64,000 nucleotides of DNA, from positions 309,001 through 373,000 of the forward strand of contig RPFO01002048.1 of NCBI GenBank assembly GCA_009746045.1, read 5' to 3'. This DNA is from Mesostigma viride. Taxonomy: Eukaryota; Streptophyta; Mesostigmatophyceae; Mesostigmatales; Mesostigmataceae. Positions 14,010 to 34,763 of this stretch are shown piece after piece (position 1 is the stretch's first letter; every line of letters begins with the position of its first letter). The notes under the pieces are model-generated. The model made no database searches. It worked only from the letters and a program-made list of their open reading frames with translations, and was not told the DNA's origin. The position numbers and the translations under genes are program-made.

Positions 14010-14065
<56 letters not shown>

Positions 14066-15272
14066 TGGTGGGTGGTGGGTGGTGGGTGGGTGGGTGGGTG
14101 GGTGGGTGGGTGGGTGGGTGGGTGGGTGGGTGGGTGGGTGGGTGGGTGGGTGGGTGGGTGGGTGGGTGGGTGGGTGGGTGGGTGGGTGGGTGGGTGGGTG
14201 GGTGGGTGGGTGGGTGGGTGGGTGGGTGGGTGGGTGGGTGGGTGGGTGGGTGGGTGGGTGGGTGGGTGGGTGGGTGGGTGGGTGGGTGGGTGGGTGGGTG
14301 GGTGGGTGGGTGGGTGGGTGGGTGGGTGGGTGGGTGGGTGGGTGGGTGGGTGGGTGGGTGGGTGGGTGGGTGGGTGGGTGGGTGGGGGTGGGTGGGTGGG
14401 TGGGTGGGTGGGTGTGGGTGGGTGGGTGGGTGGGTGGGTGGGTGGGTGGGTGGTGGGTGGGTGGGTGGGTGGGTGGGTGGGTGGTTGGGTGGGGGGTGGG
14501 TGGGTGGGTGGGTGGGTGGGTGGGTGGGTGGGTGGGTGGGTGGGTGGGTGGGTGGGTGGGTGGGTGGGTGGGTGGGTGGGTGGGTGGGTGGGTGGGTGGG
14601 TGGGTGGGTGGGTGGGTGGGTGGGTGAGGGAGTGAGTCCACGAGTGAGTGAGTCCACGAGTGAGTTCACGAGGGAGGAAGGGAGGGAGGGAGGGAGGGAG
14701 GGAGGAGGGAGGGAGGGAGGGAGGGAGGGAGGAGGAGGGAGGGAGGGAGGAGGGAGGGAGGGAGGGAGGAGGGAGGGAGGGAGGGAGGGAGGGAGGGAGG
14801 GAGGAGGGAGGGAGGGAGGGAGGGAGGGAGGGAGGGAGGGAGGGAGGGAGGAGGGAGGGAGGGAGGGAGGGAGGGAGGGAGGAGGGAGGGAGGGAGGGAG
14901 GGAGGGAGGGAGGAGGGAGGGAGGAGGGAGGGAGGGAGGGAGGGAGGGAGGGAAGAAGGGGAGGAGGGAGGGAGGGAGGGAGGGAGGGAGGGAGGGAGGG
15001 AGGGAGGGAGGGAGGGAGGAGGGAGGGAGGGAGGGAGGGAGGGAGGGAGGGAGGGAGGGAGGGAGGGAGGGAGGGAGGGAGGAGGGAGGGAGGAGGGAGG
15101 GAGGGAGGGAGGGAGGGAGGAGGAGGGAGGAGGGAGGGAGGGAGGGAGGGAGGGAGGGAGGGAGGGAGGGAGGGAGGGAGGAGGGAGGGAGGGAGGGAGG
15201 GAGGGAGGGAGGGAGGGAGGGAGGGAGGGAGGGAGGGAGGGAGGGAGGGAGGGAGGGAGGGAGGAAGGGAGT
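13850..15272 (+). repeat. 1.4 kb compound tetranucleotide microsatellite (GTGA, GTGC, GGGT, GGGA)
   Basis: Four tetranucleotide blocks run together without gaps: (GTGA)n 13850-13983, (GTGC)n 13984-14066, (GGGT)n 14067-14625 with a few one-base slips, and (GGGA)n with GGA interruptions 14690-15265. All Gs are on the + strand, and each block differs from the next by one base of the unit. Long open frames through it (HPPT or LPPS repeats) are artefacts of the repeat. Confidence 0.97.
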
Positions 15273-16226
15273 GGATCGGTCACTCACAGCAGTTTATTCC
15301 CACCCCAGCAGGGCCCCTCCCTCACATCCGGCTGCAAAATCTGCTTGATGTCGCTTCTCTCTAGAATAAGCCGCACAGCCCTGATGCGAGCAAACGGCTC
15401 GCCATCATACTGTCGCTCACTGATGCTTTATACGCGCTTTCCGTAAGATGAAAACATGACGGAAAAGAGAGACTCGGGGAAAGGGGATACGGTGAAATAC
15501 TTGTCTGCTACCGGCCGGGGTTTCAACAGCGAAGAAATTCGCACCTGAATGTGCACATACCACTCCGTCACGTCGACAACGGTCTTGCATCGCAATCGTT
15601 TCACAGACGCGGCAGCAAAAATTGCTGGCGGCATTGACATGCTCGCCGCAGTTAACGAACGTGCGGAGGTCCGTTTTAGCCCCTGACGCCACGGCGTCTT
15701 TGATGCCAAGAACGCCTGCAAAAGACACGATATCGGGCACAAAAGCACTTAAAAACGGATTACGGGTCTGCGACGCCTGGCCCAGCCTAGAAATTGGATT
15801 AAAAATCGCGCCAGCTCGGTTAAAGCAAACTGAGCCGGTAATGAAAAAAGTGCTTCGGTCAAGGCCTTAAAAACTAAAAACTGCGTCGGTTAGTGTCAAA
15901 AACCAGATGTTAGGGCGACTTTCATCGGGAAAATTTTTTGCTGCAGGTAGGTGGGGTCGAGAGAAAATCGGCGACAAAACAGGCACCCACCTGTGAATGA
16001 CGCCAAAATGGAAGGACTCCGCAGAATTTGTGGCGAAAAAAAATAACGGCAAGTAATATATGACCCTAGGAGCATACACTAAAATTTCCAGCCTCGATAC
16101 TGCCTTTTTATTCGCTAGCCATTCTTAGCTATCCTGACCAGAATGGCCGATGAATGGTTGATAATTTCCTCGGGGATTGAAAGGAAATACCTGCTGCACA
16201 CCTTGTGACATCGGTTGTGACACCCA

Positions 16227-16510
16227 TGTCTCAACATGTTTGTAGTTGGTTTGTAGTTGGTGTCTCGGTGTCTCAGAAACTCGTGGTCCGCATTGAGTGG
16301 GTGTCACGGTGTCACGACATCTGATTGGCCCGGTTCAGATTCGCCCCAAATTAAAAAAAAAAAAAACGAATTAAAAAAAAATTAAAAAAAAAACGAATCT
16401 GAACCGGGCCAATCAGATGTCGTGACACCGTGACACCCACTCAATGCGGACCACGAGTTTCTGAGACACCGAGACACCAACTACAAACCAACTACAAACA
16501 TGTTGAGACA
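16227..16510. repeat. perfect 117-bp inverted repeat with A-rich spacer
   Basis: Arms 16227-16343 and 16394-16510 are exact reverse complements. The 50-base spacer is almost only A with two GAATT-like breaks. Each arm contains the same GTGTCAC/GTGACACC octamers that form the subterminal arrays of the host element. It could be a fold-back MITE or a palindromic duplication within the 7.4 kb transposon. Confidence 0.92.
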
Positions 16511-16752
16511 CCGTGACACCGTGCGCTTTCACCCCGAATTCACGAGAGCGGCAGCGATGGTGATCGCTGCCAAATGAGGTAACATGGGCTAAACAACTCG
16601 GGCAGACCGGGCTGGCGTGACATCCCGGTCTGCCATGTTTTATTCCCCCCCCACATGGCGTGGGGATCTACGTTTGCCATCTGCCAACGTAGAAATAGAT
16701 GGGGAGGGGGGGGGACAAATGATGTTTGCAACATTGCCCAGTTGACATAGCC

Positions 16753-17130
16753 ATGGCGAGACCCGGCGTTTTCATGGAGCCCAGTGCGGGGGCGCTGGGT
16801 TGGCAGGTTTTGGGAATGTTCTTCTTGCTATTACTCCTGGGCGTCGTCGTGTTCAATATGATGGCGAGGCGCGGGGTCCGGTTATCTGCAGCCGCCGTGT
16901 TGGCGAAATGCACCCAGGATTCGTCCTTGGCTGCGGCACTTTGCAGGGACTGGGACTGTGGTTGTGGCCGCCATTGTTTGAGAAGCGTGCATTTCGAGGA
17001 GCTCAGGACGATGAGGACCGACATGTGGTCTAAGAAGCCTGCGGATCGGAAAGAGTTTATAAAGAACCAGCTTTTTCAGGCCGGCCAGGGAGAAACTGAA
17101 ATCCCGGCAAGTGATTTCATGACAAAGTGA
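16753..17130 (+). CDS. small Cys-containing ORF, possible transposase N-terminal exon
   Basis: 126 codons from the ATG at 16753. Residues about 18-38 form a single hydrophobic helix (VLGMFFLLLLLGVVVFNMM). A Cys cluster, CRDWDCGCGRHCL, at about 65-77 is followed by a charged helix (ELRTMRTDMWSKKPADRKEFI). A C-x-C-x3-C cluster followed by a Leu/Arg-rich helix is common at the N-terminus of several uncharacterised TE proteins, so this may be the first exon of an element-encoded protein. I cannot name the family. The element ends only 600 bases downstream, so the gene is partial at best. Confidence 0.3.
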   Translation: MARPGVFMEPSAGALGWQVLGMFFLLLLLGVVVFNMMARRGVRLSAAAVLAKCTQDSSLAAALCRDWDCGCGRHCLRSVHFEELRTMRTDMWSKKPADRKEFIKNQLFQAGQGETEIPASDFMTK

Positions 17131-17412
17131 TTTTGATGGTTGCTTGCATGCATATTAAGTGAGACAGCTATTCCTGGACGCATGGCGTGCCAACATATAT
17201 AAGTTGTTACCAGATATTAATCACATGCCCTATTGAAGCGACGTTGGACCGCATAAACGAGGAATGGCTGAACTTGTCATGACCCGGCAAGGTACCTACA
17301 CGCACAACAAGAATACATCAACATGAGACGATATATGGTGAGATGACCGAGATGTATGGAGAAATGAATGTCTCTACTAGGATTATTATGAAGGTGTATA
17401 CGTGGTATTTGC

Positions 17413-17612
17413 GGTGTCACGGTGTCACGGTGTCACGGTGTCACGGTGTCACGGTGTCACGGTGTCACGGTGTCAGAAGCATAGGTAAAACTTGCAATGA
17501 CCCATTGAATACATCATCCCCATTAATAATCACTGCATACCTGCAAAGATGTGTGTTTATATGCATTTTGAGGTGTCACGGTGTCACGGTGTCACGATGT
17601 CACGGTGTCACG
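17413..17612. repeat. right subterminal (GGTGTCAC)n arrays
   Basis: Eight octamers at 17413-17476 and five at 17573-17612 are the reverse complement of the TGACACCG unit of the left subterminal region. Inverted subterminal arrays often serve as transposase binding sites in TIR elements (family knowledge; the role here is inferred). Confidence 0.9.
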
Positions 17613-17735
17613 GGTCCTATGAACTTCCCCTTCCTCAGAGACTTAAGTGGAAACTTTAAATTCAATAAAATACAACTTTTCAAAATGAACTACAAATTGC
17701 GTGTTCTAGTACAAATCCAGACGAGCTTAGGGAAT

Positions 17736-17905
17736 GGCATGCGAACCCACTCGTACAGACGGGTCCCACCCCAAAAGGCCAGCTTGCGCTGATCTGCCTC
17801 TACGACCTTGATCTGATGGAAGCCGCTACGCAAATCTAGCGACGACACATACTTGACCTGGGGAGATATTTTATCCAAAACATCATCGACCCGAGGCATG
17901 GGGTA
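17736..17905 (-). CDS. gypsy-1 reverse transcriptase, fingers region
   Basis: Reads YPMPRVDDVLDKI, SSLDLRSGFHQI and LAFWGGTRLYEWVRMPF, the conserved RT blocks upstream of the YIDD motif. They align one-to-one with gypsy-2 (its residues 560-617). The frame is separated from the methyltransferase frame by one extra base near 17905 (AHT then a stop) and is broken at MPF by the 7.4 kb transposon. Confidence 0.9.
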
Positions 17906-19734
17906 CCTATCAACAGGCGGTGTGCGCGTTCAGCTGACGCAGGTCAGTGGCCATGCGCATACCTGTCCACTCGCCTGTGATGGTATCCTTCTTGGGTGCG
18001 ACCACCGTGGCAGCTGCATAACTGGAGGATGAAGCGCGGATGATCCCAGCTGCCTCTAGCTCTCGACAGTTAGCATCTACGAATTCCAGCTCAGCCAAGC
18101 TCAGCCTATGCTGCCGCCTGAATAAGGGCTGATCCGTATCTAGTGGGACCCCCATGCAGCCCCCGTTGTAGCACCCTAGTTCTTCACTGCTGAAAGCGAA
18201 TACTGAGCGTGCAGAATGCAACCAGTGCTCCATAGCCTTGCGTTGCGTGGCGGTGAGGTGCTCACCTATGGCCCATATGTGAGAGGCAGCAGGATCTGCG
18301 ACTGCGGCACTCCTACTGTCGAGACAAGGCCCCCGGACAGCGGCATCGTGGAAAAGGGAAAATGCGGCTACACCGGGTGTGACGCTCACCTGCTGAATGG
18401 CACGGACTGCGCGACCGACCGATTGCTGCAGGGTGGGCGCTCCAGCGAACACCGTGCTGGACAACAAGGACGTCATGAGGATAACGCTCCATAGTTGAAG
18501 CAGCCGCGATCTCCATGGCGACCCAGTGCCGCCGGACGCTGTTGGCCGGACACCAGCCGCGTGGGCACTGACAGGCGGTGGCGGTGTGGGGATATCTCCC
18601 CCACCCTGGCGCACTTGCATTGCGGCCCGCAGAACATACCCAACCTGGAAGGCTGACATGGCTTGCCCAACGAGAGACCACCTAGTGGCCTCTAAAACCC
18701 CCTCAGCGGCGGACGCCCCCACATGGAACCTCATGCTCACCTCCCGAAACTCAGCGGGCGGCTGCACCAACAAACCCGTACCGGTGTCCCATACCAAACC
18801 CTTGCCCCGGTCCCTGTAGGCCGATGACCCCTGGTAACTAACCAAGGTGGGAAGAGCGCACATAGGCTTACCTACGTGATTGACGGGCGCGTAAGGGTGC
18901 CGATCGGCGACGTCTACCCGCTGCGTGACCAAATGTGGTGGCAGCGCCACCTCCGCGGGCATGCCGTCGTGCTGTCGTGTGATCGCATCTACCACTGCCT
19001 GGATGATGGTGGTGAGTGCAAGGTTGGTCCAGAATGCGCGGTACCTGTGGGTGAGCCCGCCCAATCCTGCATTGTCGCACGTGACTGGTGCCCCTAAGAT
19101 GTCCACGATCTGGGCCCAGTCCTTCCTCACTACCTCGTGAGGGCTGTCGTCGGCCACCACGTTCTCAAAAAGATACGCTAGTGGCTGGTCCTGCAGCTGC
19201 TGCAAGAGTCCAACGACTCGAAGCAGATCCCAAAACAACCCGCTCCTAGGATCCGCAAGCCCGCGTCCTACGCCGGCCTGACTCAACCCTTGACATTCCC
19301 AGCCCGCGAGGACGAGGTCTATCCTCTTGTGCCGCCTCAAAAGGCCTCGCACATGAACCTCCCCAATAGCACGGATATCCTGAGGGCACTCCCCAAACGG
19401 ATCTGTCCACGCAGACGGAGGGAACTGAGAAGGATACAGGGCAGACAGCTGGGCACAGTGATGCCTATACACTGCCCGAGCGGTAGGAGACGGCTCTACG
19501 GCGATCAACGTGTGGCACGTACCGCCTGCAACGAGAAAGCCAGCCAGCCCCCCTCCCATCCCAGCAAACAATTCTAGCAATACAACCCCTTCGGACAAGA
19601 CCCGCGACTCTGCCACAACATCGGCACAGAAGTTACCTTCGGTTGTCGCGACAGCCACTTGGAACTGCGATTGCCGCGGGAGATGAGAGAGTTGTTGCTG
19701 CCGCACCGCGTTGGTGACGTGCTGACGCAAAAGG
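17906..19734 (-). CDS. gypsy-1 DNA (cytosine-5) methyltransferase and RT N-terminus
   Basis: One frame encodes a full C5-methyltransferase fold followed by the RT N-terminal region. Numbering from the apparent Met at 19757, motif I is LLELFAGMGGG (60-70, SAM binding) and motif IV is AGWECQGLSQAG (151-162, nucleophile Cys155). Motif VI is FENV (197-200), motif VIII is HRYRAFWTN (237-245), and motif X is WSLVGQAMSAFQVGYVL (360-376). The space between VIII and IX (about 246-300) would be the target-recognition region. A hydrophobic segment (LLQLWSVILMTSLLSSTVFAG, about 419-439) separates the enzyme from the RT part. The apparent Met and first five codons belong to inserted element B. Before that insertion the frame ran on from the protease (QARQALLRQHV), so the enzyme was part of a protease-methyltransferase-RT polyprotein. 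No inactivating change is seen in the motifs. Confidence 0.9.
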
Positions 19735-19738
19735 GCCT

Positions 19739-19930
19739 TGTCGCGTTTGCGTGCCATATCATCCTGGACTGGTCATTACCGCTACTTGGAATGCATCCAC
19801 TATCAGCAGTAATCATGTGTGAGATATGCCACCCAGGTGGCATATCTCACACATGATTACTGCTGATAGTGGATGCATTCCAAGTAGCGGTAATGACCAG
19901 TCCAGGATGATATGGCACGCAAACGCGACA
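19739..19930. repeat. 95-bp perfect palindromic arms (element B terminus)
   Basis: Arms 19739-19833 and 19836-19930 are perfect reverse complements around a 2-base centre (CA). A third copy of the same 95 bases lies at 20916-21010. The outermost eight bases are TGTCGCGT / ACGCGACA. Confidence 0.95.
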
Positions 19931-19931
19931 G

Positions 19932-20913
19932 AAAATGAGAATGAAAGGTGCGGTCCTTTATGGCACCGCCACCTTCATGACAGGCAATCCGGCCCAACCA
20001 GCCGATTCTTGAGACCATGCTTTATCATTAAAGCAACCAAAAGACATTTCAATTCCAATGAGATACATCACGAATTACAAAGAGTGTCGAGTTGTAATGT
20101 TGTAGTTATAAGAGCAGCTGTGAGGCCCCTTGGGTGACGCCACTGCAGGCCCCTTGTGGCGGCAGTGCGTGTGTTCCCGACCTAGTTCCTACTGGCATTC
20201 TTGCCAACGACGACCAGGGTGCCCGAAGGCCCTGTCCCTTGTCTCGTTCTCAGTCTTACACACATTCTTAACAAAACCAATACATTGTCATATCCGTCAG
20301 TCCATCCTCATGGCAACTGACTGCATGCAACCACTCACGGGGGCTGCTCCGGGCTGCTCGAACTATTTCACCCCATGAAGACAACAAACCAGTTGTGAGG
20401 GAGAGAAACGGACGAACAACGACCACCATGGTTCGTTGCTCATCCTTCTATACTGCTCAAAGCTCAAGCCTGGCGGCTGGCGCCACTAGCGCCACTTTAG
20501 ACATCAGCCAATCATAACATTGTCTAATTTCCGACAAGCTAAACTTCAAGCTTTATCTGTCAAGCGAACACAAATATACAAGGGCAAATCTATCGGCTAT
20601 GCCAGGCACCGCCTGGGGCTTCCTTGCATTTGTGTCTGGTGTCCCACGTTGAAATCCTGAAATTGCACATCTGCTCAGTGCCTCGCCGGCTTGCTGCGTA
20701 CCAGCATTCGGCAAACTGCCCTTGTGACGAATGTCAGTGAAATTCAGGTCCGCCCAAAAGTTCCGTCAGCAAATTCAGCGGACTTGGCGCGTGAGTACAA
20801 TTGAGATCCGCGGCGTCAGTACCGGGCCGCGGTATAGCAACCCGCACAAGGCTGCGGACGTCAGAATTACGCTAAAATCTGAATTGCGGACGTGATAGAT
20901 CACGGACGCGACA
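19932..20913 (-). repeat. element B long repeat A2
   Basis: A 982-bp direct repeat of 21360-23623 once the hAT-like insert (22136-23409) is removed from the latter. The two copies look essentially identical, so the element is young. On the element strand it starts TGTCGCGTCCGTGATC and ends CATTCTCATTTT. A short A-rich tract at 21120-21132 lies in the internal region between the repeats. Confidence 0.9.
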
Positions 20914-22135
20914 GCTGTCGCGTTTGCGTGCCATATCATCCTGGACTGGTCATTACCGCTACTTGGAATGCATCCACTATCAGCAGTAATCATGTGTGAG
21001 ATATGCCACCTCCCCCCCCACTATTTAGCTCACAACAACGTGAGAGCAAAAAGTGAAAGAAAGGCATCTCACACTAAAGAAGGAAGCCCAAAGAGGGCGT
21101 CATTCCAGGCAGCAGCAAAAAGAAAAAAAAAAAATCCAGCTGCTCCAAGATGCTTTTCCAGGATCAGCAACAACCTTAACATGCATGCTTTTAAAGGCTT
21201 AGCAATAACCCCTTCGATGGCTTTTTACCGGGAAAAGCCTAACCTCTTCAGATGCTTTTGAAGGCTAAGCAATAACCTTTTCCTTGTGCTTCCCTGGGTG
21301 AAGCAGGAGGAACATCCAGGCTGGCCGGACTGAACCCATCATGGGTTGTTCGTCCGTTTAAAATGAGAATGAAAGGTGCGGTCCTTTATGGCACCGCCAC
21401 CTTCATGACAGGCAATCCGGCCCAACCAGCCGATTCTTGAGACCATGCTTTATCATTAAAGCAACCAAAAGACATTTCAATTCCAATGAGATACATCACG
21501 AATTACAAAGAGTGTCGAGTTGTAATGTTGTAGTTATAAGAGCAGCTGTGAGGCCCCTTGGGTGACGCCACTGCAGGCCCCTTGTGGCGGCAGTGCGTGT
21601 GTTCCCGACCTAGTTCCTACTGGCATTCTTGCCAACGACGACCAGGGTGCCCGAAGGCCCTGTCCCTTGTCTCGTTCTCAGTCTTACACACATTCTTAAC
21701 AAAACCAATACATTGTCATATCCGTCAGTCCATCCTCATGGCAACTGACTGCATGCAACCACTCACGGGGGCTGCTCCGGGCTGCTCGAACTATTTCACC
21801 CCATGAAGACAACAAACCAGTTGTGAGGGAGAGAAACGGACGAACAACGACCACCATGGTTCGTTGCTCATCCTTCTATACTGCTCAAAGCTCAAGCCTG
21901 GCGGCTGGCGCCACTAGCGCCACTTTAGACATCAGCCAATCATAACATTGTCTAATTTCCGACAAGCTAAACTTCAAGCTTTATCTGTCAAGCGAACACA
22001 AATATACAAGGGCAAATCTATCGGCTATGCCAGGCACCGCCTGGGGCTTCCTTGCATTTGTGTCTGGTGTCCCACGTTGAAATCCTGAAATTGCACATCT
22101 GCTCAGTGCCTCGCCGGCTTGCTGCGTACCAGCAT

Positions 22136-23409
22136 TAGGGTTGTACCGAATAGTGTTCCGAATACCGAATATCCCCCGAATACCGAACCGAACACCGAAT
22201 ATGTTCAGTATACGGCGAACGGTCTGTCCGTCTGAACATATTCGGTATCGGTATCGGGAGGCAAGCTCTACTTCCGAATATGTTCGGTATCGAAATCGGA
22301 ACACCCTACTATTCGACGAATATATTCGTAGTTCCGAATATCGAATAGTAGTACCCCTACCAGCGGGCGGCGCAGCCTCCAGCCTCCACTCACCAGCTGG
22401 CGCGGTCATGCCTCCGCCGACTCAAGAGTTAGGCCAACGCCCAAAAGCTGAATGCACTATGCAGGGAAGGCAACTGTGCTCGTCTAAGTATTAAACACTA
22501 ATAATAAGTGTATCTCAATATATAATTATATAGGATGCGGATGGCGCTGCCTTCTATTCCCCCAACCACCGGCCTGACATCGTGGTGCTGGACTTTGAGG
22601 GGGGTGGCCGGCATCTGCTTATTGACGTTTCGGTGGCGCGGCCCTTGGCTCTTAGCCACGTGGCTGGGGCCTCCCTCACGGCAGGTTACACGGCGGACCG
22701 GGCGGAGCGGGCCAAGCTCCTGGCCTACGGCGACGTCGGGCACCATCGTGTGGTGCCCTTTGTCCTGGAGGAGTTTGGGGCCATGGGGCCCCTGACCTCC
22801 GCCTTCTTCAAGGAGTGTTGCCGGCTCCGGGAGGACCGGCTGGACCTGGAGGGCCAGCGGGCCCCATGGTCGGCGCGGACCTGGACGTCATATTGGCGTC
22901 AGCGCTTGTCGGTGGCGCTGACTCGGGCCATGGCGGACATCATGCTCCGCCGTACGCGGGCTGATTTTGCGGTGCAGCAGGGCTATTAGGTTCCTCCCGT
23001 TAGGCGTTTCCATTGGTCTTATCGTACTTCGTAGTATAGAGCTTTGACATGGCTCTGTATATAGGTTTATAGCTGGGCGTTTGCTTTGGTTTGAGTGATT
23101 TCACTCTGCTGTAAGTAATTATATTTTTAATATATAATTGATACAAAATAATTAATATAAGTCTCATTAATATAAATGATACAAGTTGTCTACCTAATAC
23201 GTTATAGTAGCTACTGTCGTCATTATTCGATCGGCGTCCGAATAGTTCGGAGAACTATTCGGTGTTCGATTCGGGAAGGGCCCTTCAGCTCCGAACATAT
23301 TCGGTATCGGTATCGGGAGGCTCCAAATATATTCGGCATCGGGTTCGGGGCACCCCCCTGGTCCGAGTATCCGATTCGGCAAGCCAAAACGCTATTCGGT
23401 ACAACCCTA
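22136..23409. mobile_element. hAT-like DNA element, 1.27 kb, with 8-bp duplication
   Basis: The TIR TAGGGTTGTACCGAATAG (18 bp) is at both ends. The duplicated target ACCAGCAT is at 22128-22135 and 23410-23417. The uninterrupted sequence exists in the sister repeat near 20685, proving insertion. An 8-bp duplication with TIRs starting TAGGG fits the hAT superfamily. Subterminal DNA is packed with TTCGGTATCGG-type motifs in both directions. There is no transposase; the centre is a captured coding fragment. Confidence 0.85.
22534..22989 (+). pseudogene. captured coding fragment, PD-(D/E)xK-like tail of a retroelement protein
   Basis: The frame begins right after TATAG, an acceptor-like site at 22533, and runs 151 codons to TAG. 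It reads RPDIVVLDFEGGGRHLLIDVSVARP. The P-D-I...(I)-D-V-S-V pattern resembles the restriction-like endonuclease core found at the C-terminus of some non-LTR retrotransposon proteins. AADRAERAKL-type helices and VPFVLEEFGAMG follow. GC-rich codon use contrasts with the AT-rich flanks of the element. It is probably an exon of another mobile element or host gene, picked up by the hAT-like element. The family assignment is tentative. Confidence 0.45.
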
Positions 23410-23627
23410 ACCAGCATTCGGCAAACTGCCCTTGTGACGAATGTCAGTGAAATTCAGGTCCGCCCAAAAGTTCCGTCAGCAAATTCAGCGGACTTGGCGC
23501 GTGAGTACAATTGAGATCCGCGGCGTCAGTACCGGGCCGCGGTATAGCAACCCGCACAAGGCTGCGGACGTCAGAATTACGCTAAAATCTGAATTGCGGA
23601 CGTGATAGATCACGGACGCGACAGCCT

Positions 23628-26600
23628 GCCGCGCTTGCGGCTGCTGTCGCGCCGCCCATGTGCTCTGCAATGAGGCCCGTCCCACCAGTGCTGTTGGGAT
23701 GCACGGCCGATGCTTATCACGCACAGCCCCCCCAGCTGCCGTGACCTCCCCCATCCGTACCTCCACCACCGCGTCGCGCAACCCAGCCTCGACCCGGTTG
23801 ACCGTCGAGACACGCACTGCCCCAGTGTCCGAGCTGTAGCAGCTCACTGGGATGCTTGCTTGGCGCATGGCGTCACCGTCTCTGTCAACGATGTACACCG
23901 CGCGGCCCTCCCACATGCGTACCTCGAGCCGCATGGGAAACATGACCTCCATGCCGACCAGCACGTCATACGATGACTGCTCGGTCACAATTAAGGGCAT
24001 TCACAGGGATGCAGGCCATGTCGGATGGCCTGAGCGGGTTGAGGATGACCATTACTTGGACCGCAGTCATGGCAAAGGGTTTAGCGGCAGGGCCCTGCCA
24101 GCCCGCCACGGACACATGACTGTCCCGCAGCCCGCCATTCTCCCTGGTTAGGTTGAGCAACTGGGCCAGCCGAGCACTGATGACGAGTGGCTGGGCCCCG
24201 CTGTCCAGTTTCACGACCAACTCATGGTCAGTACTGTAGACCACGTTGCTCAGGGGCTCCCCATGCCCCTGCGCCTGAAACGCCATTGCTGGCTCACCAT
24301 CCGGATATGAGGTGACAGTGGGTGCCCTAGGCACGACGCACGCCCGCTGCGCGTTGTCCAAGACACCATGAGCGACATGACCCACGACTACCGAAGCCGA
24401 TGCAGGGCGATGCCCAACAAATGTGGCTGTCTCAGCGTTGTGCAACCTACGGGCGTCCATTGTGTCAGCGTACCGCTGTACCTCTGACGCATGCGACCCG
24501 AGCACCTCCACGGCCCGCTGACCGAACCACTCGACCACTTGCCGGGGAGTGTATGCCGGCGTGTCCACGACCGATGGCATAGGGTATAATGGCAACAACC
24601 TGCGCCGCTGCTCTGCCCCAGCAGGATTGTCGTGTTCCAGGGTGGAGCCGGTCCGAGCGGGAGCCATGCGAAAGGACTGAGGCAACTGCCCCACAGTCTC
24701 ACTTGGCTGCCCCACCTGAAACGACGGTGGTGCACGTGCTTGCTTCCCGCGCGCGCCAACTGCGTGGATGTCCAACGCCATCACGTCGGCTGGCCGCCAG
24801 AAGTCCTCGTCCCTGTATTGAACCTGCGATCCCCCATCCTCCCTTTCACGCCCCCCCGCCTCGCCCGTCGGCTGAATGATGACCACCCCCGCGTCCACCT
24901 TCTTGTCCTCCACGTCCGCAAAGTGCACCCCCGGCGCTGGGCACTGCCCCGCCAGATGGGTTCGGACCGTTGCTGGGTGTGATTTCTTACACGCCTTGGG
25001 ACAATCACGTTTGATGTGCCCATCCTGACCGCACAGGAAGCAGCCCGATTTGCGCGCATCCGTCCTACCCGTCTGTGAGGACGTGCCCCCCCCAGCTCGC
25101 GTCGGGGCGGCAGCGTCCTTGTTGCCGCCAGCGGCGTTACCCTGGGTTGCATCATGCGATGAGGCGTTGCGAGACCCCCCTTGGTTCCTGCTAGCACCGT
25201 GGCCGCCTTGCGGGCGCGCTTGTCTTGTGGCAGACGACTCACCCGACTTGGCCTTGGTCAGCGCGTCGACCTTGGCCTGCAGCTCGGCCACCACCGTGCT
25301 TACCGAGATCCGGCCTTGCGCGTGTCGTCGCATCATGGCCCTGACCTCAATGCACAGTGACCGCAATCGCCACGGCTGGCCGTTGGGCGGCGTGGGCAGC
25401 TCCATCTCCTTGGAGCCTAGCGCTTGCAGCCATTTTTGACACGCCAGCTTTTCGGACCAGTCCTCCACTTCGCCGGCGAACTCCATGAGGCGCTCGTAAG
25501 ATTGCTCCGGGGTTTCACCCTCGGCTATCTTGAAACTGCGCCATTCACGCTCTGCCTTGATGGTCTCCACCGGGTATTCCTGGCGAAGGAGGTCCCACAG
25601 TTCCTCAGCAGGGTCGACACCATACATGATGTTGTCATAGTCGGGCTGGCCACGCCCGTCGAAGCCGAACCACACGTCCGTGTGACGCGTGTACAGCGAG
25701 ACCTCTCTCCACTGCTCCACCAGCCTAGCCACTCGCCTCAGCGTAAGGCCGTGAAAGAAGAAATGCATGTTGTTCATCACAAACTCATGCATTACAGCGC
25801 CTTGCGTAGTCATGTATTGCAGATCAATCCATGACTTGTACGCGTTGTAGGCCTGCGCCAGCGTGGCCAGATTGCCGGTTGTGGAGAACTTCTCGCGCAT
25901 GTCCACCCGTGGTAGGGTGGGCATCTTCGCGCCTTCAGGTATGAGGCGCACCCTTTGCGGGTACTGCACCCCATCGGCATCCTCCGGCGGTCGCTGAGCT
26001 GCGCGTCCCTGCGCCAGCGTGCTTGGGCGTGCTGCCTCCCGTACTCGGAAAGCCAGCGGCGTGGTTATGTCCTCCATGGGCGGAATGCGCCCGATTGGCA
26101 CACTTGACCACCGTGCAGTCGACCCGCCGGTCAGCGCCCCACCGCCTCGCCCAAACGGAATTGAGACCCCGCCTGGCAGCATGCGTCCTGGTGCACCCCT
26201 GCGTGGGTCCATCGCGCGCGCTAGCCCTGCCCCGTTCTCCTCGTGCAATCCGTCTCGCGCTTGATCGAAAGGCAGGCGCCTGGGCGCCAGCGTATACTCG
26301 CCCCGTGGCTGACCATCCGCCTCACCAAGCAAGTCGTGTTGGGTTAGCGACCCAGCCAAAACCCCCGGTTCCATCGAAGCCCTTCCCGCCGCATTACCTG
26401 AGGTTGGCGGCTGGTCCCGCTCCCTCGGCTCCGCGGTAACACCATTGGGCCCGGCATCGATGCCTGCCCGTCCCATGGTGTGGACTGCAGATGACGACCC
26501 TCTACGGCCACCAATCTGTCGGTCACTTCCCGCATTTGCAGCGCCAGTTGCTGCTGCAACTGTTGCGACTGTTGCTGCATCTGCGCTTGCATCTGCGCGA

Positions 26601-26757
26601 ACAGCGCCACCATACTCAGCGGCGCTTCTTGGTCGCGACTCCCACCCACTGCGGGTACGGCGGGAGGAATCCCGCCATTCGACCCCGGAGCGGACGTGTT
26701 GGCATCTGCTCTATTTGCATCCGCCATGGCTCGAGTCTGCGCTCGCGTCAGTGGCAT
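23628..26757 (-). CDS. gypsy-1 gag and aspartyl protease
   Basis: It starts at the ATG at 26757 (MPLTRAQTRAMAD) or 30 bases later. A Gln-rich coiled coil (QMQAQMQQQSQQLQQQLALQM) comes first. The frame shifts by one near 26440 and then runs 830 codons. A capsid-like region (REKFSTTGNLATL ... EWREVSLYTRHTDVW ... LWDLLRQEYPVE; DNA about 25900-25330) precedes a CCHC knuckle, CFLCGQDGHIKRDC (about 25045). The retropepsin part has VVKLDSGAQPLVIS (active-site D-S-G, about 24210) and, after a second one-base shift at 23966-24000, SSYDVLVGMEV. The frame then enters the methyltransferase. Gag packages RNA and the protease cuts the polyprotein. The two shifts could be programmed or mutational. Confidence 0.85.
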
Positions 26758-26991
26758 GCACCAGCTGACCGATGGGCAAAACAAGAACCAACAAGCCTAG
26801 GTTAGCCTGCCAGAAAAAGACAAGAGCCAGCAAATTCTGGCTAGTTCTATTTTCTTAAAATCTGTCTCAAGACACTTCCTTTACAAACTGTCAGCCAGGC
26901 CGTTCCCTGTACTGCTGATGGTTGATAAACACTAAAGCCAACGTCTTGGCTTCGAACAGAAGGAAGCAGACTACCGGGTAGTCTCTTCGAG

Positions 26992-28192
26992 TAACGAAAG
27001 GAGGGCTCTCAGCCGAGGACAAGGAACTGTCCCTCGTGCCTGATGACCACCTTATTGCCTCCCCTGCTATAGAATAATGCTTTCACAACACACACTTTGC
27101 ACAGTCTGATGATGAAGCCGCACATGCGGAATTTATTGAGAAAGTTAATACAATTACAACACGTTGATAGTCTCAATATCGATGCACTCCATGCTCACGA
27201 GCCCGCAGTTAGGCAGCGCTCCATGACATGCTACCGGCCTTGCTCCCAAGGAAAGGGAGAAACACGAAGGCCACTAACGAGAGACTCGAAGAGACTACAC
27301 GCTACGTGAGAGTCCTCTTCGACTATGAACCAAACCATTCGTCATGCCACACGCATGACACACGCCACACTTGTCAGTCCAGCCAGGAATGCCCAAACTA
27401 TCTTGCTGTCTGAACCATGCAAATAGAAACTGCATTCCAGTTGCCGTCCTGGCTTTCTACCACACATGCCAACAAAAGCAGGAAGGCATCCCGACAAATC
27501 TAAATTGCTACCCTGTTGCCGATCTCATCTCCTAGAGGCTCCGGCATTTCTGTCCCTGGGAATGTCCGGCATTGAGTCACGACCACCAAGGTCGAAGCAT
27601 AATATCCTTCAAACAATCTGCACGCTCACACCTTGCGTGTGAGTGGCCCAGCAAACATTGCTTCTAATCTTTCCTTTCTAGAAGAAATCCCTTTGTAGGG
27701 CTGCCAGCGATTTCGCATTCATTCCAGCGATCTGGCTCCGCACCGCAAATTTTCCTTTTCCATTTTCTGTCCAGTCCTCATAACGTTGACCCGCTATTCT
27801 ACACCACAAAGACACCTGGCCTGTCAATAGCCTCGGCGCTGTTGAAGTCCAGCAGTCCAGCAGTCCAGCTCCAGCTCCAGCTCCAGCTCCAGCTCCAGCT
27901 CCAGCTCCAGCTCCAGCTCCAGCTCCAGCTGTCCACTAACTCGCGTATGATCCTCTCGACGCTGCGCACTTGTGCTGCCGTCCGCTCAAGTACGTCAGTG
28001 CTGCGCGCCCAGCCGTGCCTGGCCCGGCGCGCGCGCACGTGCACTTTCGTCCGCTCTTATGCTGCAAGTGCTAGTGTCCCCCCCCCGGTCACTAGCCTTT
28101 GTCGAAAATGCGCAGAAAACAAATTCCTTGCGCACGTCACCGGTATTGTGCATAGCATGGGCGCCCGGATGACATAGCTCGCGTCCGTGACA
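26992..28192 (-). repeat. gypsy-1 5' long repeat A1
   Basis: A 1.2 kb direct repeat of 6250-7415. The main difference is the (AGCTCC)n tract at 27865-27930 (about 14 units, against about 8). The leader on the element strand starts CTCGAAGAGACTACC, identical to gypsy-2. The outer edge (TGTCACGG on the - strand) abuts the right end of the piggyBac-like element. Confidence 0.88.
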
Positions 28193-28220
28193 GCCCTTTT
28201 GGGGTGTCATGTCCCCTTAA

Positions 28221-28800
28221 AGTCAACGTGATTTTCAATCCGTTGCGCGCCTCTAGCATGACCACCGTGTCCGCGTATGCGCTGGTGGTCAACAAGTGTG
28301 GATATTCCGCACTACTCGGGGTGGATGTCCTTGCTCGCGCCATGGTAATTCAGGTGGACTATAGGGCGGAGGAGGCATCTTACATCCCTGATTGGGATGG
28401 GGCTGGCCTGAAGCGGGCCAGTGTGCCGGCCCGTCTCATGCTTCAGTTCTTCAGCCCGGGCTGCACGCCTCAACCCTTCAGCGGCTGCGGGCGTGGTGGA
28501 GGTCAGCATGGTGGAGGTACGGGCGGCGGGCTCATCGGCGTGGGACAAGCATCGGACGGTGCTGCCTCAGCCAACGGCGAGCATTGCCAAGATGCGCACG
28601 CAGTGGTCGCTGGATGCTGTGACGTCCACGCGGCAGCTGGCTAAGAATGCGCAAGTGGGTGACTGAAGCCGTCGTCACCATTCCTCAGATGGCCAGCCAT
28701 GGCCTCACTTTAAGGTGCAACCGGGTGTCTCAGATGGAGGCCCAAGGTAATTTTTCTGCTGCAATCTTATACCGCAGGCCCCTGATTTTGACAAGGGTGC
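28221..28800 (+). pseudogene. gypsy-2 protease C-terminal part and linker to methyltransferase
   Basis: Directly after the TTAA the frame reads VNVIFNPLRASSMTTV ... GYSALLGVDVLARAMVIQ. It aligns with gypsy-1 VMVILNPLRPSDMACI ... SSYDVLVGMEVMF and contains the conserved LLG turn of retropepsins. Later parts align in other frames (WDKHRTVLPQPTAS; MRKWVTEAVVT with gypsy-1 LRQHVTNAVRQ; QGNFSAA with EGNFCAD), so at least two frameshifts separate protease from methyltransferase in this copy. Confidence 0.75.
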
Positions 28801-28804
28801 GGTA

Positions 28805-31633
28805 GTGTTGGAACTGTTTGCGGGGATTGGAGGGGGCATTGCAGGCTTTTTGGCCGCAGGCGGCGTGTGCCGTAAACTCATCGCGGTAGAGCCATCGCAC
28901 AAGGCGCGTCAGGTGTACTTCAGTCACTGTGGCGTGTTGTCGCGAGAGTATCCCGCGCAGTTTCCGCCATCAGCATGGCGTGACCCGTTTGGGGAATGTC
29001 CTCAAGATATCCGAGCCATCGGTGAGGTGCAGGTGCAGCAGTTGTTGCGCAGGCATCATGCCATCGACTTGGTAATTGCGGGTTGGGAGTGCCAGGGCCT
29101 GAGCCAGGCAGGGCAAGGGCGGGGGCTAGCCGATCCGCGTAGCGCGCTGTTCTGGGAACTGTTGCGTGTGGTGGGACTGTTGCAGTCGCGTCAGCCCCAT
29201 CCGCCTGCGTATCTGTTTGAGAACGTTGTGGCGGGTGACAGCCCACATCAGGCGGTGCGGGAGGACTGGGCTACAATCGTGGCACTCCTGGGGGAGCCCA
29301 TCGTGTGTGACAACGCAGGGCTGGGTGGGCTCACGCATCGTTTGCGTGCCTATTGGACCAACGTGGCGTGTGCGACCGGTGTGCAGGCGGTCTTGGGGGC
29401 CGTAGCAAGGCAGCATCCGAGTGTGTCTGCGGAGGTAGCATTGCCTTCCCACCTAGTCACGCAGAAGGTGGATAGCGAGGATCGCCCACCGTATGCACGC
29501 GTCAACCGGGTCGGGAGCCCCATGTGTGCACTGCCGACCCTGGTCAGTTACCAAGGGTCGACAGCATACCGTGATCGGGGTAAGGGTCTCGTTTGGGACA
29601 CTACCACCGGTCTGTTGGTGCAGCCACCCGCAGAATTTCGTGAGGCCAGCATGGGTTTTCATGTCGGGGCCTCGGCGCTGCCGGGCGTGCTCGAGAGTGA
29701 GCGCTGGTCTTTGATAGGCCAGGCTATGTCGGTGTTGCAGGTCGGGTATGTGCTGCTTGCATCGGTTGCCGTGCGCCAGTCTGGGGGGGCGTCCCCAGCC
29801 AATCCGCCTCAGCAGGTTGAGGCGCGCGCAGCCAAACTGAAGCGCCCTGCAGCGACGGGGACTTCATCAGCATGGGGGTGGCGTCTGCGACAGGTGTGGA
29901 CTATCATTCTCATGACCGCCCTGCTGACCAGCACCGTGCTGGCCGGCGAGCCCACGCTGCATCGGGTAATACACCGTGCGGCACGCGAGGCTCCGGCGGT
30001 GGGTGTCACACCAGGTGTGGCAGCCTTTTCCTTGTTCCACGACGATGCGGCTAGGGCGCCGCATCTTGAGGCACATGCGGTAGCTGTGGGTGATCCCGCG
30101 GATACGCACCCCTGGGCTATTGGCGAACACCTTTCTGATGCGCAGCGCTCAGCCATGCTAAAGTGGCTAGGCACTGCAAGGGGGGCCTTCGCTTTCACAA
30201 GTGATGAACTGGGGTGTTTCAATGGTGGGACCATGCGTGTTCCATTGGACACTGACACTCCTTTGTTCCGACGCCAGCATCGCCTGAGTCAGGCCGAGTT
30301 GGATTTTGTAGCCGAGCAATGCAAGGAGTTAGAGGATGCCGGTATCATCAGGCAATCTTCCTCCAGCTATGCTGCTGCCGTTGTCGTTGCGCCCAAGAAG
30401 GACGCTATCACCGGGGCATGGACGGGTATGCGCATGGCCACCGATCTGCGGTTGCTGAATGCACACACACCCGTGGACCGTTACCCCATGCCACGTGTGG
30501 ATGATGTCCTGGATAAGATATCTCCTCATGTGAAGTTTGTGTCCTCGCTGGACCTGCGTAGCGGCTTTCATCAGATCGCAGTTGCGCCGGAGGATCAGCG
30601 GAAGCTTGCATTCTGGGGGGGCGGCAATTTGTATGAGTGGGTGCGCATGCCCTTTGGGCACCGCAACGCTAGTGCTGTTTTCCAACGAGCTATGGACAAA
30701 GTGCTTGCAGGTCTTCCTTTCGCCGCTTGTTACATTGATGATGTAATCGTCTTTAGCGCGACATTTGAGGAGCACCTGGCGCACTTGGAGCAGGTTCGCT
30801 TGGCTCTCGAGGAGCATAATATGCGGCTGCACCCTGAGAAGTGCAAGTTCGCCCAGCGGACCCTCTCATTCCTTGGTCATCAGATTGTGCCGGGTGGCCG
30901 GACGCCTGATGCCGCCAAGGTCGAATCCATTGCGCAGGCCGCCGTACCCACGGATGTCTCAGGGGTGCGGGCGTATTTGGGTTTGGCTGGCTATTACCGA
31001 GGTTACATTGAGAACTTCAGCAGCAAGGTGAAGCCCTTGACCGAGTTACTCAAGAAGGGGTGCGTGTGGGCGTGGGGTCCCGCACAGCAACGCGCCATCG
31101 AGACAATCAAGCAGGAGCTCACGTCGGCACCGATTCTGCGCGCCCCTGACTATGCTTTGCCATTTGTGTTATATACCGACTGGTCCAAGGTAGGACTGGG
31201 TGCGGTCTTGGCGCAAAAGGATGGTGATGGGCGCGAGCACGTTATTGCTTATGCTAGTCGCAGCAACAACCCAGCGGAGAGCCGGTATTCTTCCTATGAG
31301 GGGGAGGCACTGGCTGTGGTGTGGGCCATCAAGCACTTTCGCCCGTATTTATTTGGGCGCGTGTTTACTCTGGTGACAGACCACCAGCCGCTTCAGTGGC
31401 TGATGACCAACACCAACCTGACGGGTAAGCTCGCCCGATGGGCCATGATTATCCAGGAGTACCACATGACCATTGTGCATCGGGCCGGCAAGGACCATGT
31501 CAACGCCGATGTGCTATCCCGATACGCCATGCCTACCACTGTTGACCACATGCACTGGAGCCCGGGCCATGGGTGCCAAGGGCTCGTCTGGTTCTGTGGT
31601 CTTTGTGAACACTGGGTATGCGGCCGACGATGA
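28805..31633 (+). CDS. gypsy-2 DNA (cytosine-5) methyltransferase-reverse transcriptase-RNase H polyprotein
   Basis: 942 codons open, from a TTG just inside motif I; there is no ATG start because the frame was originally continuous with the protease. Methyltransferase: motif I LELFAGIGGG (2-11), catalytic motif GWECQGLSQAG (93-103, Cys96), FENV (138-141), HRLRAYWTN (178-186), motif X WSLIGQAMSVLQVGYVL (301-317). A hydrophobic stretch, VWTIILMTALLTSTVLAG, is at 364-381. RT: MRMATDLRLLNAHT (542-555), SSLDLRSGFHQ (580-590), YIDD (643-646). RNase H acidic residues are Asp792, Glu834 and Asp859. The enzyme would methylate cytosine at carbon 5 using SAM; target and activity are unknown. The ECQ triplet replaces the usual PCQ. 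The last ~30 residues are out of frame. It is striking that this whole block stayed open while gag decayed. Confidence 0.9.
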   Translation: MLELFAGIGGGIAGFLAAGGVCRKLIAVEPSHKARQVYFSHCGVLSREYPAQFPPSAWRDPFGECPQDIRAIGEVQVQQLLRRHHAIDLVIAGWECQGLSQAGQGRGLADPRSALFWELLRVVGLLQSRQPHPPAYLFENVVAGDSPHQAVREDWATIVALLGEPIVCDNAGLGGLTHRLRAYWTNVACATGVQAVLGAVARQHPSVSAEVALPSHLVTQKVDSEDRPPYARVNRVGSPMCALPTLVSYQGSTAYRDRGKGLVWDTTTGLLVQPPAEFREASMGFHVGASALPGVLESERWSLIGQAMSVLQVGYVLLASVAVRQSGGASPANPPQQVEARAAKLKRPAATGTSSAWGWRLRQVWTIILMTALLTSTVLAGEPTLHRVIHRAAREAPAVGVTPGVAAFSLFHDDAARAPHLEAHAVAVGDPADTHPWAIGEHLSDAQRSAMLKWLGTARGAFAFTSDELGCFNGGTMRVPLDTDTPLFRRQHRLSQAELDFVAEQCKELEDAGIIRQSSSSYAAAVVVAPKKDAITGAWTGMRMATDLRLLNAHTPVDRYPMPRVDDVLDKISPHVKFVSSLDLRSGFHQIAVAPEDQRKLAFWGGGNLYEWVRMPFGHRNASAVFQRAMDKVLAGLPFAACYIDDVIVFSATFEEHLAHLEQVRLALEEHNMRLHPEKCKFAQRTLSFLGHQIVPGGRTPDAAKVESIAQAAVPTDVSGVRAYLGLAGYYRGYIENFSSKVKPLTELLKKGCVWAWGPAQQRAIETIKQELTSAPILRAPDYALPFVLYTDWSKVGLGAVLAQKDGDGREHVIAYASRSNNPAESRYSSYEGEALAVVWAIKHFRPYLFGRVFTLVTDHQPLQWLMTNTNLTGKLARWAMIIQEYHMTIVHRAGKDHVNADVLSRYAMPTTVDHMHWSPGHGCQGLVWFCGLCEHWVCGRR

Positions 31634-32007
31634 GGAGGAGGCGTGGTGGCGCAGTGTCGAGTACTCTGTGGTGGACTTTGGCACCAGCGACGACCCGGTG
31701 CGGCCGTCGCCATTCACGCCATCCAAAGCTGTGTGCGCTATGGAAGAGGGTTGGTATCTGTCCTTTGACATTGATCCTTCTCTGCAGCAGCTGATCCGAC
31801 GCTGTGCAGGCTCTCTTAGCGCGTAGCTCTCTTGCTGATTGCTACACCGCTGATATCTGGCTAGATGGTCGAGTGTTGGAGCAAGTGCAGGGTGCTGTCT
31901 TGACTCCTACTCCAGTCGATTGGACTCCTGCTCAGAAGGCAACGGAGTTGAACAGGGTGCAGCACAGGGCTGCAACCTATGGTTGGGAAGATGGGGTTTT
32001 GTACAAG
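31545..32007 (+). pseudogene. gypsy-2 RNase H-integrase linker
   Basis: Two overlapping frames continue the polyprotein: GARAMGAKGSSGSVVFVN ... SFDIDPSL, then after a shift near 31800 DIWLDGRVLEQVQGAVLTP ... GWEDGVLYK. Both align with the gypsy-1 linker (ARALGAESSPGSVVFVN; VWLDGRVLEQVQGIALTP). The frame is cut at TACAAG by the TIR element at 32008. Confidence 0.8.
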
Positions 32008-32110
32008 AGTCGGTGGCCGCGAGTTTGCTCAGTTGGCCAAGGCATTCAAGTGAGCAAACTTTCGGCGCGCAACGCGCGGCTTGTTCAGGAACTACGGCAA
32101 ATCGAAAAAT

Positions 32111-32251
32111 GCCTAGGCACTTTTGGATTCGCCTAGGCAGGACTAGATCTCAAATCTAAAAATGCCTAGGCATTTTTTCCGTGAACTAGATCTGAACAGC
32201 AACGAATTGGTCGCAATAAAAATGCCTAGGCATTTTTAGATTTGCCTAGGC
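32111..32251. promoter_or_regulatory. five GCCTAGGC palindromes upstream of the transposon gene
   Basis: The 8-base palindrome stands at 32111, 32131, 32164, 32224 and 32244. Two pairs are exactly 20 bases apart, about two helical turns. Three sites are embedded in AAAATGCCTAGGCA(T/C)TTT. The gene's ATG is 185 bases downstream of the last site. A cluster of identical palindromes at helical spacing suggests binding by a dimeric protein, either a promoter factor or the element's own protein (inference). Confidence 0.5.
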
Positions 32252-32435
32252 ACTTTTGGATTCTCCGTCCTTTCTGAACAGCCGCGCATCAGTCGCAACT
32301 ACCGTTGTAGCGAGGCATTTTATGCGTGCTCGGCATTTTGGGTTTAACGGACTGCACTGCACTTTGAATTCAAACAGGTGAAAGCAACTGTTGAACACGT
32401 TTTAAGGTGAGATCGGTGGGTGAGAACAAGCGGAA

Positions 32436-34548
32436 ATGGCTGACACAATGGGCACCGAAACCATGCAATTATGCGGGGGTGGTTGCGAAAACATGGTTGG
32501 CCCAGTCCACAAGTGCACGTGCGGCAAGTGGATGCATGTTTTTTGTGGTGTCGGCGTGGGAGAAGAGGGTTTTGGACAGACAATTCTGTGCAAGGAATGC
32601 TGCGGCGATACGAAGGTCGCCAGGAAAGTCGCTCCGAATGACCTGGGCAATCAGCCTGATAGCGCGAAAGGAATCGACAAGAGGGCTGCTGATGACAAAG
32701 AAGCCCACTCTGATGGGGAAGAAGATGCTGAGGAGGCTGAGGATAGGGCCCTTCTAGCTGGGGACATGGCCATATTGGAAGGAACTGACCTTAACGAACT
32801 GGACCGTGCCGTTTTAAGTGGGAAAATGAAGCCCATGACAACTAAGGAGCAAGCCGGGACGGCGACCAATGTATTCAAGGGCACCAGAAAGCAGGTACAG
32901 GGCGAAGTATTTTTGAAATCAGGACAGGCTGCCTGCTGCGGACTTTCGTTTTGCGGTATATAGCGGTCATGCATTCGCGGGAACTCGCAGGTTTCTTTAG
33001 CGCAGCATCCTTCAGTTAGTGATTCCTTTTTGCACTTCAATCTCTGCGGTGCTGCCACCACGCGGGTTGCACAGGGATGTGCTGGAGATGAGGGAGGCGA
33101 CGGCGATGTCTATGCCAAGTGCGATGGTGATAGCGACGGTGATAGCGATGGGGATAGCGACGGCGATGGTGATGCCGATGGCGTCGCAAATCAGCAGCAA
33201 GATGGGAAGGCATCCGATACGTCCCATGAAACGAGAAATCAGGTAAAGAACGGCATAGTATGAAATCACGACATCGTGGCGACTTTAGTTAGTGGCTGTT
33301 TTGCAAATTTGTAAATTGCGGGGGGCAGCTTTCGACATGTTTCTTTGTTGCTGCATGTTTATATGTGCATGACGTATGTGCATTCATGCATTATGTGCAA
33401 TCATTCATTGGTGCTGCCGGAACGCGTTACTTGTTACAGGGATGTGCCGGATCTGAACAAGGCGACAGAGATGCCGACACCAAGGTCGATGGTGTCGGCG
33501 ATCACGTTGATGGTCAAACCGATGCCGATGCCAGTGACCATGGCCATGCCCACGGCGATGCCAAGGGCAATGAACATGGCCATCAACATGCCCATGGCAG
33601 TGGCCAGGGAGTGGCTGCGGGTGATGCACTGCTGCGTTCAGCTGACATCAACCAGGATTGTTCTGGGACAGCACCTACCATCGAGCGCGGCTCCATCTTT
33701 GCAAGTGCACGACCCCAAGCGACATACGTAGTCGTTTCAGTGGTTGAAGGTGCAGGCTTCTTCATGGCCAAAACCACAGTCTCCAACCTGAAGGGCCTTA
33801 AGCAACGCTCGAGTCAGCGCCCCATCATTGATGTAATGACCCCTGTGGTGTTTGTCAAGCTGCCCCTTGATGGCAAAGGCATGCCTTTCACCCAAGCTCT
33901 TGACGGAAACGGCAAGCCCTACGCGATGCCACCTGGGCCAGCTAGGGATGCCACCTTGGCAAATGGTGAAGGTCTCTTGGCCACGCTTGATGTGCAGCAG
34001 TTCTCCAAGTATCCGGCTGCGTTCTGCCGTGTGGGCAATGATTCAGCCCCTTTTCCTTTCGATGAGGCACCGGGATGGCAGTCTTCTCGCCCTGCAAAGG
34101 TGCCCAAGCTGGCATCACCTGTGCCAGCATCTCCAGCTGCCAGGCGTGCATCACTCACGCCAGGAAAGCCGGCTGCCCACAGGCGTGCATCCCTCGTGCC
34201 AGAATCGCCTGCCAAGCGTGCTTCACTCACACCGGAACTGCCAACTGCCAAGCATGCCCGCAAGGATAGAAAAGCATTCGTGGATCTTACGAACACAGAG
34301 ACGCAATCCAAGCCTACAAAAAAGCCTAAATCAGAAGACTCACTTGGTGGCATGGGCGACGACATCATGGGCAAGGGCAAGGGTAGCGAGGGCAAGGGCA
34401 TGGGCTGCACTGGCACGCAGGATGCCAACATGGGCATGTTTGGCATGCAGGGCATGAATAGCATGGGCACAGATGGCACGAGTATGGTTGGCATGGGTAT
34501 GAATGGCACGGGAATGGGTGGCATGGGCGGCATGGGCAGCATGGGTGG

Positions 34549-34582
<34 letters not shown>

Positions 34583-34590
34583 ATGGGCAG

Positions 34591-34651
<61 letters not shown>

Positions 34652-34652
34652 T

Positions 34653-34705
<53 letters not shown>

Positions 34706-34706
34706 T

Positions 34707-34763
<57 letters not shown>

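Follow-up and report, generated by a model that had tools for sequence, protein, structure and literature searches.

The window examined here, 64,000 nucleotides of the genome of the streptophyte alga Mesostigma viride (contig RPFO01002048.1, positions 309,001 to 373,000), contains two Ty3/gypsy retrotransposon copies, gypsy-1 on the minus strand and gypsy-2 on the plus strand, and each carries a cytosine-C5 DNA methyltransferase (MTase) domain between its protease and its reverse transcriptase (RT). An earlier note on this DNA had proposed this arrangement on the strength of MTase motifs I, IV, VI, VIII and X, and profile matches and motif coordinates bear it out in both copies. The Pfam DNA_methylase profile PF00145 (cut-off 22 bits) matches the gypsy-1 frame at 17910–19769 (minus) with 41.8 bits (E 1.2e-10) and the gypsy-2 frame at 28751–31630 (plus) with 44.4 bits (E 2e-11). 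The domains themselves, at 18597–19592 in gypsy-1 and 28790–29785 in gypsy-2, have the same residue at 252 of 348 aligned positions. The gypsy-2 domain has motif I at 28808–28837, motif IV (GWECQGLSQAG) at 29081–29113, motif VI (LFENVV) at 29213–29230, motif VIII (THRLRAYWTN) at 29333–29362 and motif X (ERWSLIGQAMS) at 29699–29731, and counterparts of all five lie between 19577 and 18654 in gypsy-1. C5-MTases usually carry PCQ (more generally PC(Q/N)) in motif IV and GN in motif X. The fold is that of a C5-MTase, with motifs I, VI and VIII present; at the active site, WECQ stands in place of PC(Q/N) in all three subfamilies described below, so that the Cys is kept and the Pro is replaced by Glu. 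Since motif IV has no proline and motif X reads GQ, the word "complete" in the earlier note is right for the domain and not for every textbook motif.

In gypsy-2 the MTase and the RT/RNase H region form a single 960-residue open frame. RT and RNase H lie at 30308–31540 (PF00078 E 1.4e-27, PF17917 E 5.4e-39), and they are joined to the MTase by a linker at 29786–30305 that can be aligned in both window copies and is present in the genomic copies L119, L120 and L126 (below). Within this linker a conserved, hydrophobic, signal-like stretch (29894–29944, and 18444–18494 in gypsy-1) follows the MTase in all three subfamilies. The domain set of gypsy-1, all on the minus strand, is gag, protease, MTase, RT, RNase H, integrase and a C-terminal PHD finger. 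Its gag with zinc knuckle (23966–26710; PF00098 E 9e-06) runs at its end into the protease (LDSGA), the second part of which is an open frame at 23628–24000 also matched by tblastn. The first part of RT lies at 17733–18074 (start approximate), the second part of RT with RNase H and integrase (H2C2, rve) at 8317–10315, and the PHD finger at 7664–7798 (PF00628 E 2.2e-09, residues 264–308 of the frame at 7586–8587). Between protease and MTase sits an insertion, element B (19739–23623), with GCCT on both sides. Element B plus one GCCT amounts to 3,889 bases, and by phase arithmetic its removal carries the protease phase (24000 mod 3 = 0) into the MTase phase (19772 mod 3 = 2), in agreement with the continuous protease–MTase–RT frame that had been claimed for gypsy-1.

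Genomic copies, subfamilies and selection

The genome searched comprised 439.9 Mb in 2,243 contigs (for M. viride NIES-296, excerpts of PMC6947507 give 441.8 Mb in 2,363 scaffolds, with an abundance of long terminal repeat (LTR) elements and 5-methylcytosine mainly at CG). The PF00145 search, in which 123 of 415 candidates were scored, gave 127 rows, at least 58 of them gypsy-type by score and profile range (gypsy-2 among them, gypsy-1 not). Fifteen of the 58 were fetched, and all match the gypsy MTase by tblastn, as expected from their selection; having been chosen as MTase matches, they cannot serve to test for elements without the domain. The linker or RT follows the MTase directly in 11 of these 15, the other four (L121, L127, L130 and L131) being truncated or broken up inside the 3–10 kb retrieved, and a gag or protease match lies upstream in all five of the 10-kb loci. 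One copy, L120, has a single open frame of 2,074 residues that encodes CCHC (below cut-off), MTase, RT, RNase H, H2C2, rve (DDE integrase) and PHD domains, and a 1,642-residue frame in L119 has the same domains from the MTase onward. In both, the order RVT_1, RT_RNaseH, Integrase_H2C2, rve is that of Ty3/gypsy elements, the integrase D, D and E motifs can be recognised by eye, and an rve core is found with no tyrosine recombinase domain, so these are not DIRS elements. A protease lies upstream in both by tblastn to gypsy-1, with no Pfam protease match there.

A genome search with RT as query, in which the best 101 of 3,861 candidates were scored, returned sequences that are all near-identical to gypsy-2, one of them being gypsy-2 itself; 29 of these 101 matches lie in frames of 2,074 residues (that of L120 included) and 20 in frames of 1,041 residues. 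The L120 frame and the 29 matches in frames of equal length support the earlier proposal that the MTase is part of the polyprotein and no chance neighbour. That note had also named genomic copies lacking the domain as the finding that would overturn it, and a small part of this search has been run: MTase sequence is present in each of four copies (L139–L142), close kin of gypsy-2, that were picked by their RT for differing frame lengths, though L142 has just the second half of the domain. Two of these, L139 and L140, have a common frame break between MTase and RT, and their frame length recurs in 20 of the best 101 RT rows; the shared break could mean that a dependent form has spread, or it could have arisen in assembly. 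The genome also holds a second, Dcm-type MTase (L089–L118) in open frames of ~300 residues, with dozens of rows and many equal scores, on small contigs and some large ones, beside other frames. It looks like another repeated, perhaps viral, element.

The gypsy-type copies fall into three subfamilies, A (gypsy-2, L120, L124), B (gypsy-1, L126) and C (L119, L122, L125), whose MTases are 75% (A–B), 66% (A–C) and 66% (B–C) identical and whose RTs are 83–88% identical. Among the fourfold sites of the MTase, taken from codons with matching first and second bases, 85 of 130, 80 of 123 and 82 of 116 are different in the same pairs, which is near saturation. The nonsynonymous divergence of the MTase (dN, NG86) is 0.21, 0.28 and 0.31, and the synonymous divergence (dS) is saturated or ill-determined, NG86 having failed in two of the three pairs and given 2.6 in the third. 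The MTase evolves faster than RT (dN 0.09–0.13) and more slowly than the linker (dN 0.32–0.45). Because 66–75% identity has been kept despite near-saturated synonymous sites, the MTase is judged to be under purifying selection in all three subfamily pairs.

Placement of the methyltransferase

By fold and by tree we put the MTase with DNMT3 and the phage DNMT3-like enzymes. A tblastn search with one gypsy MTase found 241 phage and 3 plasmid records, all below 60% identity and none covering 80% of the query. Patterns built from the two window MTases alone gave no confirmed match among 34 in viral contigs and 48 in genome contigs, and after the alignment had been widened with such enzymes at least 498 of 600 viral-contig matches were confirmed, of which 80 were kept. 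The tree has 31 rows and uses columns filled in 70% of rows; it omits plasmid_L008, plasmid_L006, gyB_L126, own_dcm_L104, L105 and L090 and adds two host rows, and in an earlier 35-row tree with long-branched plasmid rows the gypsy clade was unplaced. In the 31-row tree the gypsy MTases, 18 phage enzymes and DNMT3A form one clade (support 99/91.9), in which the gypsy enzymes are a long branch beside the phage DNMT3-like enzymes and DNMT3A; closeness to phage is partly a matter of selection, because top matches were chosen for the phage rows. A clade of the gypsy MTases with DNMT3A alone is not rejected by the approximately unbiased test (p-AU 0.265), grouping with the alga's own Dcm-type enzymes fits worse yet is not rejected at 0.05 (p-AU 0.086), and a clade with the host DNMTs fits worse (p-AU 0.037). 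A place within eukaryotic DNMT3 is not decided by this tree, which has no Klebsormidium nitens rows.

A profile of four gypsy MTases matches DNMT3A at 7.2e-11 vs 5.1e-05 for DNMT2 (the letters of the DNMT2 sequence being unchecked). Among solved structures the best match to a single sequence was the tobacco DRM chain 4onj (E 5e-05), with DNMT3A not among the matches listed, and the best match to a two-row profile was DNMT3A. A structure modelled from two sequences was of too low confidence to use (predicted local distance difference test, pLDDT, 37.9). The phage relatives carry SPCQ in motif IV and GN in motif X, unlike the gypsy MTases.

Terminal repeats, nesting and damage

Gypsy-1 has no plain LTRs. 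Its order on the minus strand is repeat A1 (28194–26989), coding region, B1 (7558–7416), A2 (7415–6247) and B2 (6250–6108), the last at the outer 3′ end. A1 and A2 align over 1206 columns with 1 mismatch and 3 gap openings (97.0% with gaps), and the two B repeats are identical over their 143 bp. L119, of another subfamily, has the same A–coding–B–A–B layout, with A repeats of 1,128 bp without difference (pieced together from matches) and B repeats that agree exactly over 92 bp, B2 being shortened at its outer end. L120 speaks against the layout, in that it has B and no second A was found within the stretch fetched. Ahead of the gypsy-2 gag, a partial A-type repeat (416–1047, plus) is 97% identical to the gypsy-1 A repeats over 442 columns and also matches L120, yet the MTase–RT parts of the two elements are only 68% identical; recombination between subfamilies is a possible source of this repeat. 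Element B for its part has two direct-repeat pairs and TGTCGCG...CGCGACA ends, and brings to mind a small relative built on the same split layout.

Gypsy-1 is nested within gypsy-2, since the block at 4232–28216 that splits gypsy-2 contains gypsy-1. L120 is unbroken at this point, the counterparts of 3247–4231 and 28217–32007 being continuous in it, and TTAA flanks the block on both sides. The block severs gag and the N-terminal part of the gypsy-2 protease (2278–4231, plus, by tblastn) from the C-terminal protease part (28217–28609, plus), which is recognised by its frames, by tblastn to the gypsy-1 protease at 28430–28609 and by the L120 junction. A second insert in gypsy-2, at 32008–35277, is flanked by CAAG and includes one frame with a SCAND3-like zinc finger and a long one of GM repeats. 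Neither element is whole. Gypsy-2 has these two interruptions, and its protease and MTase frames differ; gypsy-1 has a frame change inside the protease, a stop in RT (17910–17912) and two inserts, element B and one in RT with identical 33-bp inverted ends (10316–17733). Scanning the window against Rfam and for tRNAs gave no match. Elsewhere in the window, at 13.7–15.3 kb and 54.9–55.6 kb, are long repeats with 8-bp spacing that are mutually inverted.

Possible role of the methyltransferase and comparison with known elements

The position between protease and RT, the shared frame and the long selection make a role of the MTase in the replication cycle likely. The reading that we favour, with a probability of roughly 55%, is that this Ty3/gypsy family acquired a DNMT3-type MTase and keeps it in Pol for self-methylation of its new DNA, with maintenance by the host. 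Acquisition probably occurred once, before the three subfamilies split, their agreement being the one basis for this, and the domain would since have been kept as a fixed part of a Pol comprising protease, MTase, RT, RNase H, DDE integrase and PHD finger. The MTase would travel into the particle with RT and, no later than integration, would methylate the element's own new double-stranded DNA, probably at CG sites; selection of chromatin for insertion might be aided by the PHD finger, and a host DNMT1-like enzyme would then maintain the mark. A new copy would thus enter the genome pre-marked like resident DNA, to the presumed benefit of the element. Among the roles considered, de novo self-methylation of element complementary DNA (cDNA) maintained in this way is, we infer, the likeliest. 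The host gene at L135 is DNMT1-like (its BAH match is below cut-off) and could be such a maintainer of CG marks. It is conceivable, if quite improbable, that the gypsy elements are the alga's sole DNMT3-type source, the host having a DNMT1-like enzyme and neither DNMT3 nor DRM, so that new CG methylation would be written by a retrotransposon Pol and only copied by the host. No DNMT3-like host locus was found among five further loci fetched, two of them readable as MTases, and excerpts of PMC10991848 report that Mesostigma lacks DRM; absence of a host DNMT3 is not established by this, because scoring covered 123 of the 415 candidates and genes are split by introns.

Several observations weigh against self-methylation. 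CpG is not clearly depleted, the observed/expected ratio being 0.82 and 0.84 in MTase–RT parts, 0.78 in L119 and 0.85 in L120 vs 0.79 in the window, so there is no clear footprint of self-methylation; TpG/CpA is somewhat raised (1.32–1.50 in the elements vs 1.29 in the window). The motif IV Pro to Glu and motif X Asn to Gln changes are found in every copy readable in frame (gypsy-1, gypsy-2, L119, L120, L122, L124, L125 and L126), and activity is therefore not to be taken for granted. We know of no activity for the WECQ variant of motif IV. These changes, common to all three subfamilies and in the first case adjoining the catalytic Cys, would suit a domain that has lost catalysis and is retained in Pol for DNA binding or for structure; we consider this unlikely, as the Cys, the Glu of ENV and both motif VIII Arg are invariant across 41 phage relatives and both window copies, and have also been kept through near-saturating synonymous divergence, and as DNMT3A is itself without the motif X Asn (the DNMT3A sequence used matched DNMT3A chains over 1–301). 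The K. nitens gypsy enzyme was inactive in a yeast assay that its authors, in the excerpts of PMC5890265 used here, call inconclusive.

The absence of clear CpG depletion would also suit an enzyme that acts on RNA instead of DNA, its substrate being the tRNA primer or the genomic RNA of the element. The MTase adjoins RT, and SymbioLINE-Dnmt had no DNA activity in yeast, its authors suggesting an RNA role (PMC5890265, excerpts); the gypsy MTase sequence is nonetheless nearer to DNMT3 than to DNMT2 in the profile comparison above, and we regard an RNA target as distinctly unlikely. That the domain is a dispensable passenger, hitchhiking in a group with many related gypsy lineages that lack it, gains some room from the RT search, whose 101 scored matches include no wider sisters of gypsy-2. 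Purifying selection in all three subfamily pairs argues against a passenger, as do the four RT-chosen copies with MTase sequence, close kin of gypsy-2 though they are, and this explanation seems to us improbable. What a retrotransposon gains from carrying a DNA methyltransferase is directly testable here: near-identical copies are numerous, and in some the terminal repeats have hardly diverged or not at all, so that there are recent insertions whose methylation at birth can be read from existing or new bisulfite or nanopore data.

The earlier note had mentioned retrotransposons with MTases from dinoflagellates and a streptophyte alga, in agreement with PMC5890265. Its suggestion that the position in pol and the lineage might be new is weakened by KnitGypsy-Dnmt3 of K. 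nitens, an LTR gypsy element with a DNMT3-type domain in Pol, purifying selection, and DIRS-like repeats with gypsy-like domains (PMC5890265). The Mesostigma elements resemble it in being gypsy elements of a streptophyte alga with a DNMT3-type domain in the Pol frame (960, 2,074 and 1,642 residues in gypsy-2, L120 and L119), in the A–coding–B–A–B layout of gypsy-1 and L119, and in purifying selection. Set beside it by text description only, they are marked by WECQ in motif IV, an integrase ending in a PHD finger and many copies; KnitGypsy-Dnmt3 is called DNMT3-type, whereas the Mesostigma MTases are a long branch beside the phage DNMT3-like enzymes and DNMT3A. The Symbiodinium elements SymbioDIRS-Dnmt3 and SymbioLINE-Dnmt are likewise retrotransposons with a cytosine MTase under purifying selection, in Pol in the DIRS form, for which self-methylation of cDNA was proposed (PMC5890265), but the former uses a tyrosine recombinase and the latter is a non-LTR element, whereas the Mesostigma elements have a gypsy-type DDE integrase. 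A later paper that cites this work (PMC12344493) reports DNMT3 from streptophytes and dinoflagellates in elements of the LTR Copia and DIRS types. The 41 phage DNMT3-like methylases from fetched viral loci share the same motifs, including R-x-R-x-YWTN, but are free-standing enzymes with SPCQ, no retroelement and 22–29% identity to gypsy-2. Chromodomain gypsy elements (chromoviruses; PMC3605345) similarly carry a chromatin-reading domain at the integrase C-terminus, a chromodomain where the Mesostigma elements have a PHD finger. We found no report of DNMT-bearing retrotransposons in Mesostigma in the open-licence literature, which is no proof of their absence from print. A second streptophyte case, in which a gypsy element with this unusual split-repeat layout again bears a DNMT3-type domain, hints at an old, wider lineage and not a Klebsormidium one-off. 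MTase-bearing gypsy elements are already known from a related alga, and the Mesostigma family adds a well-supported member to this rare kind.
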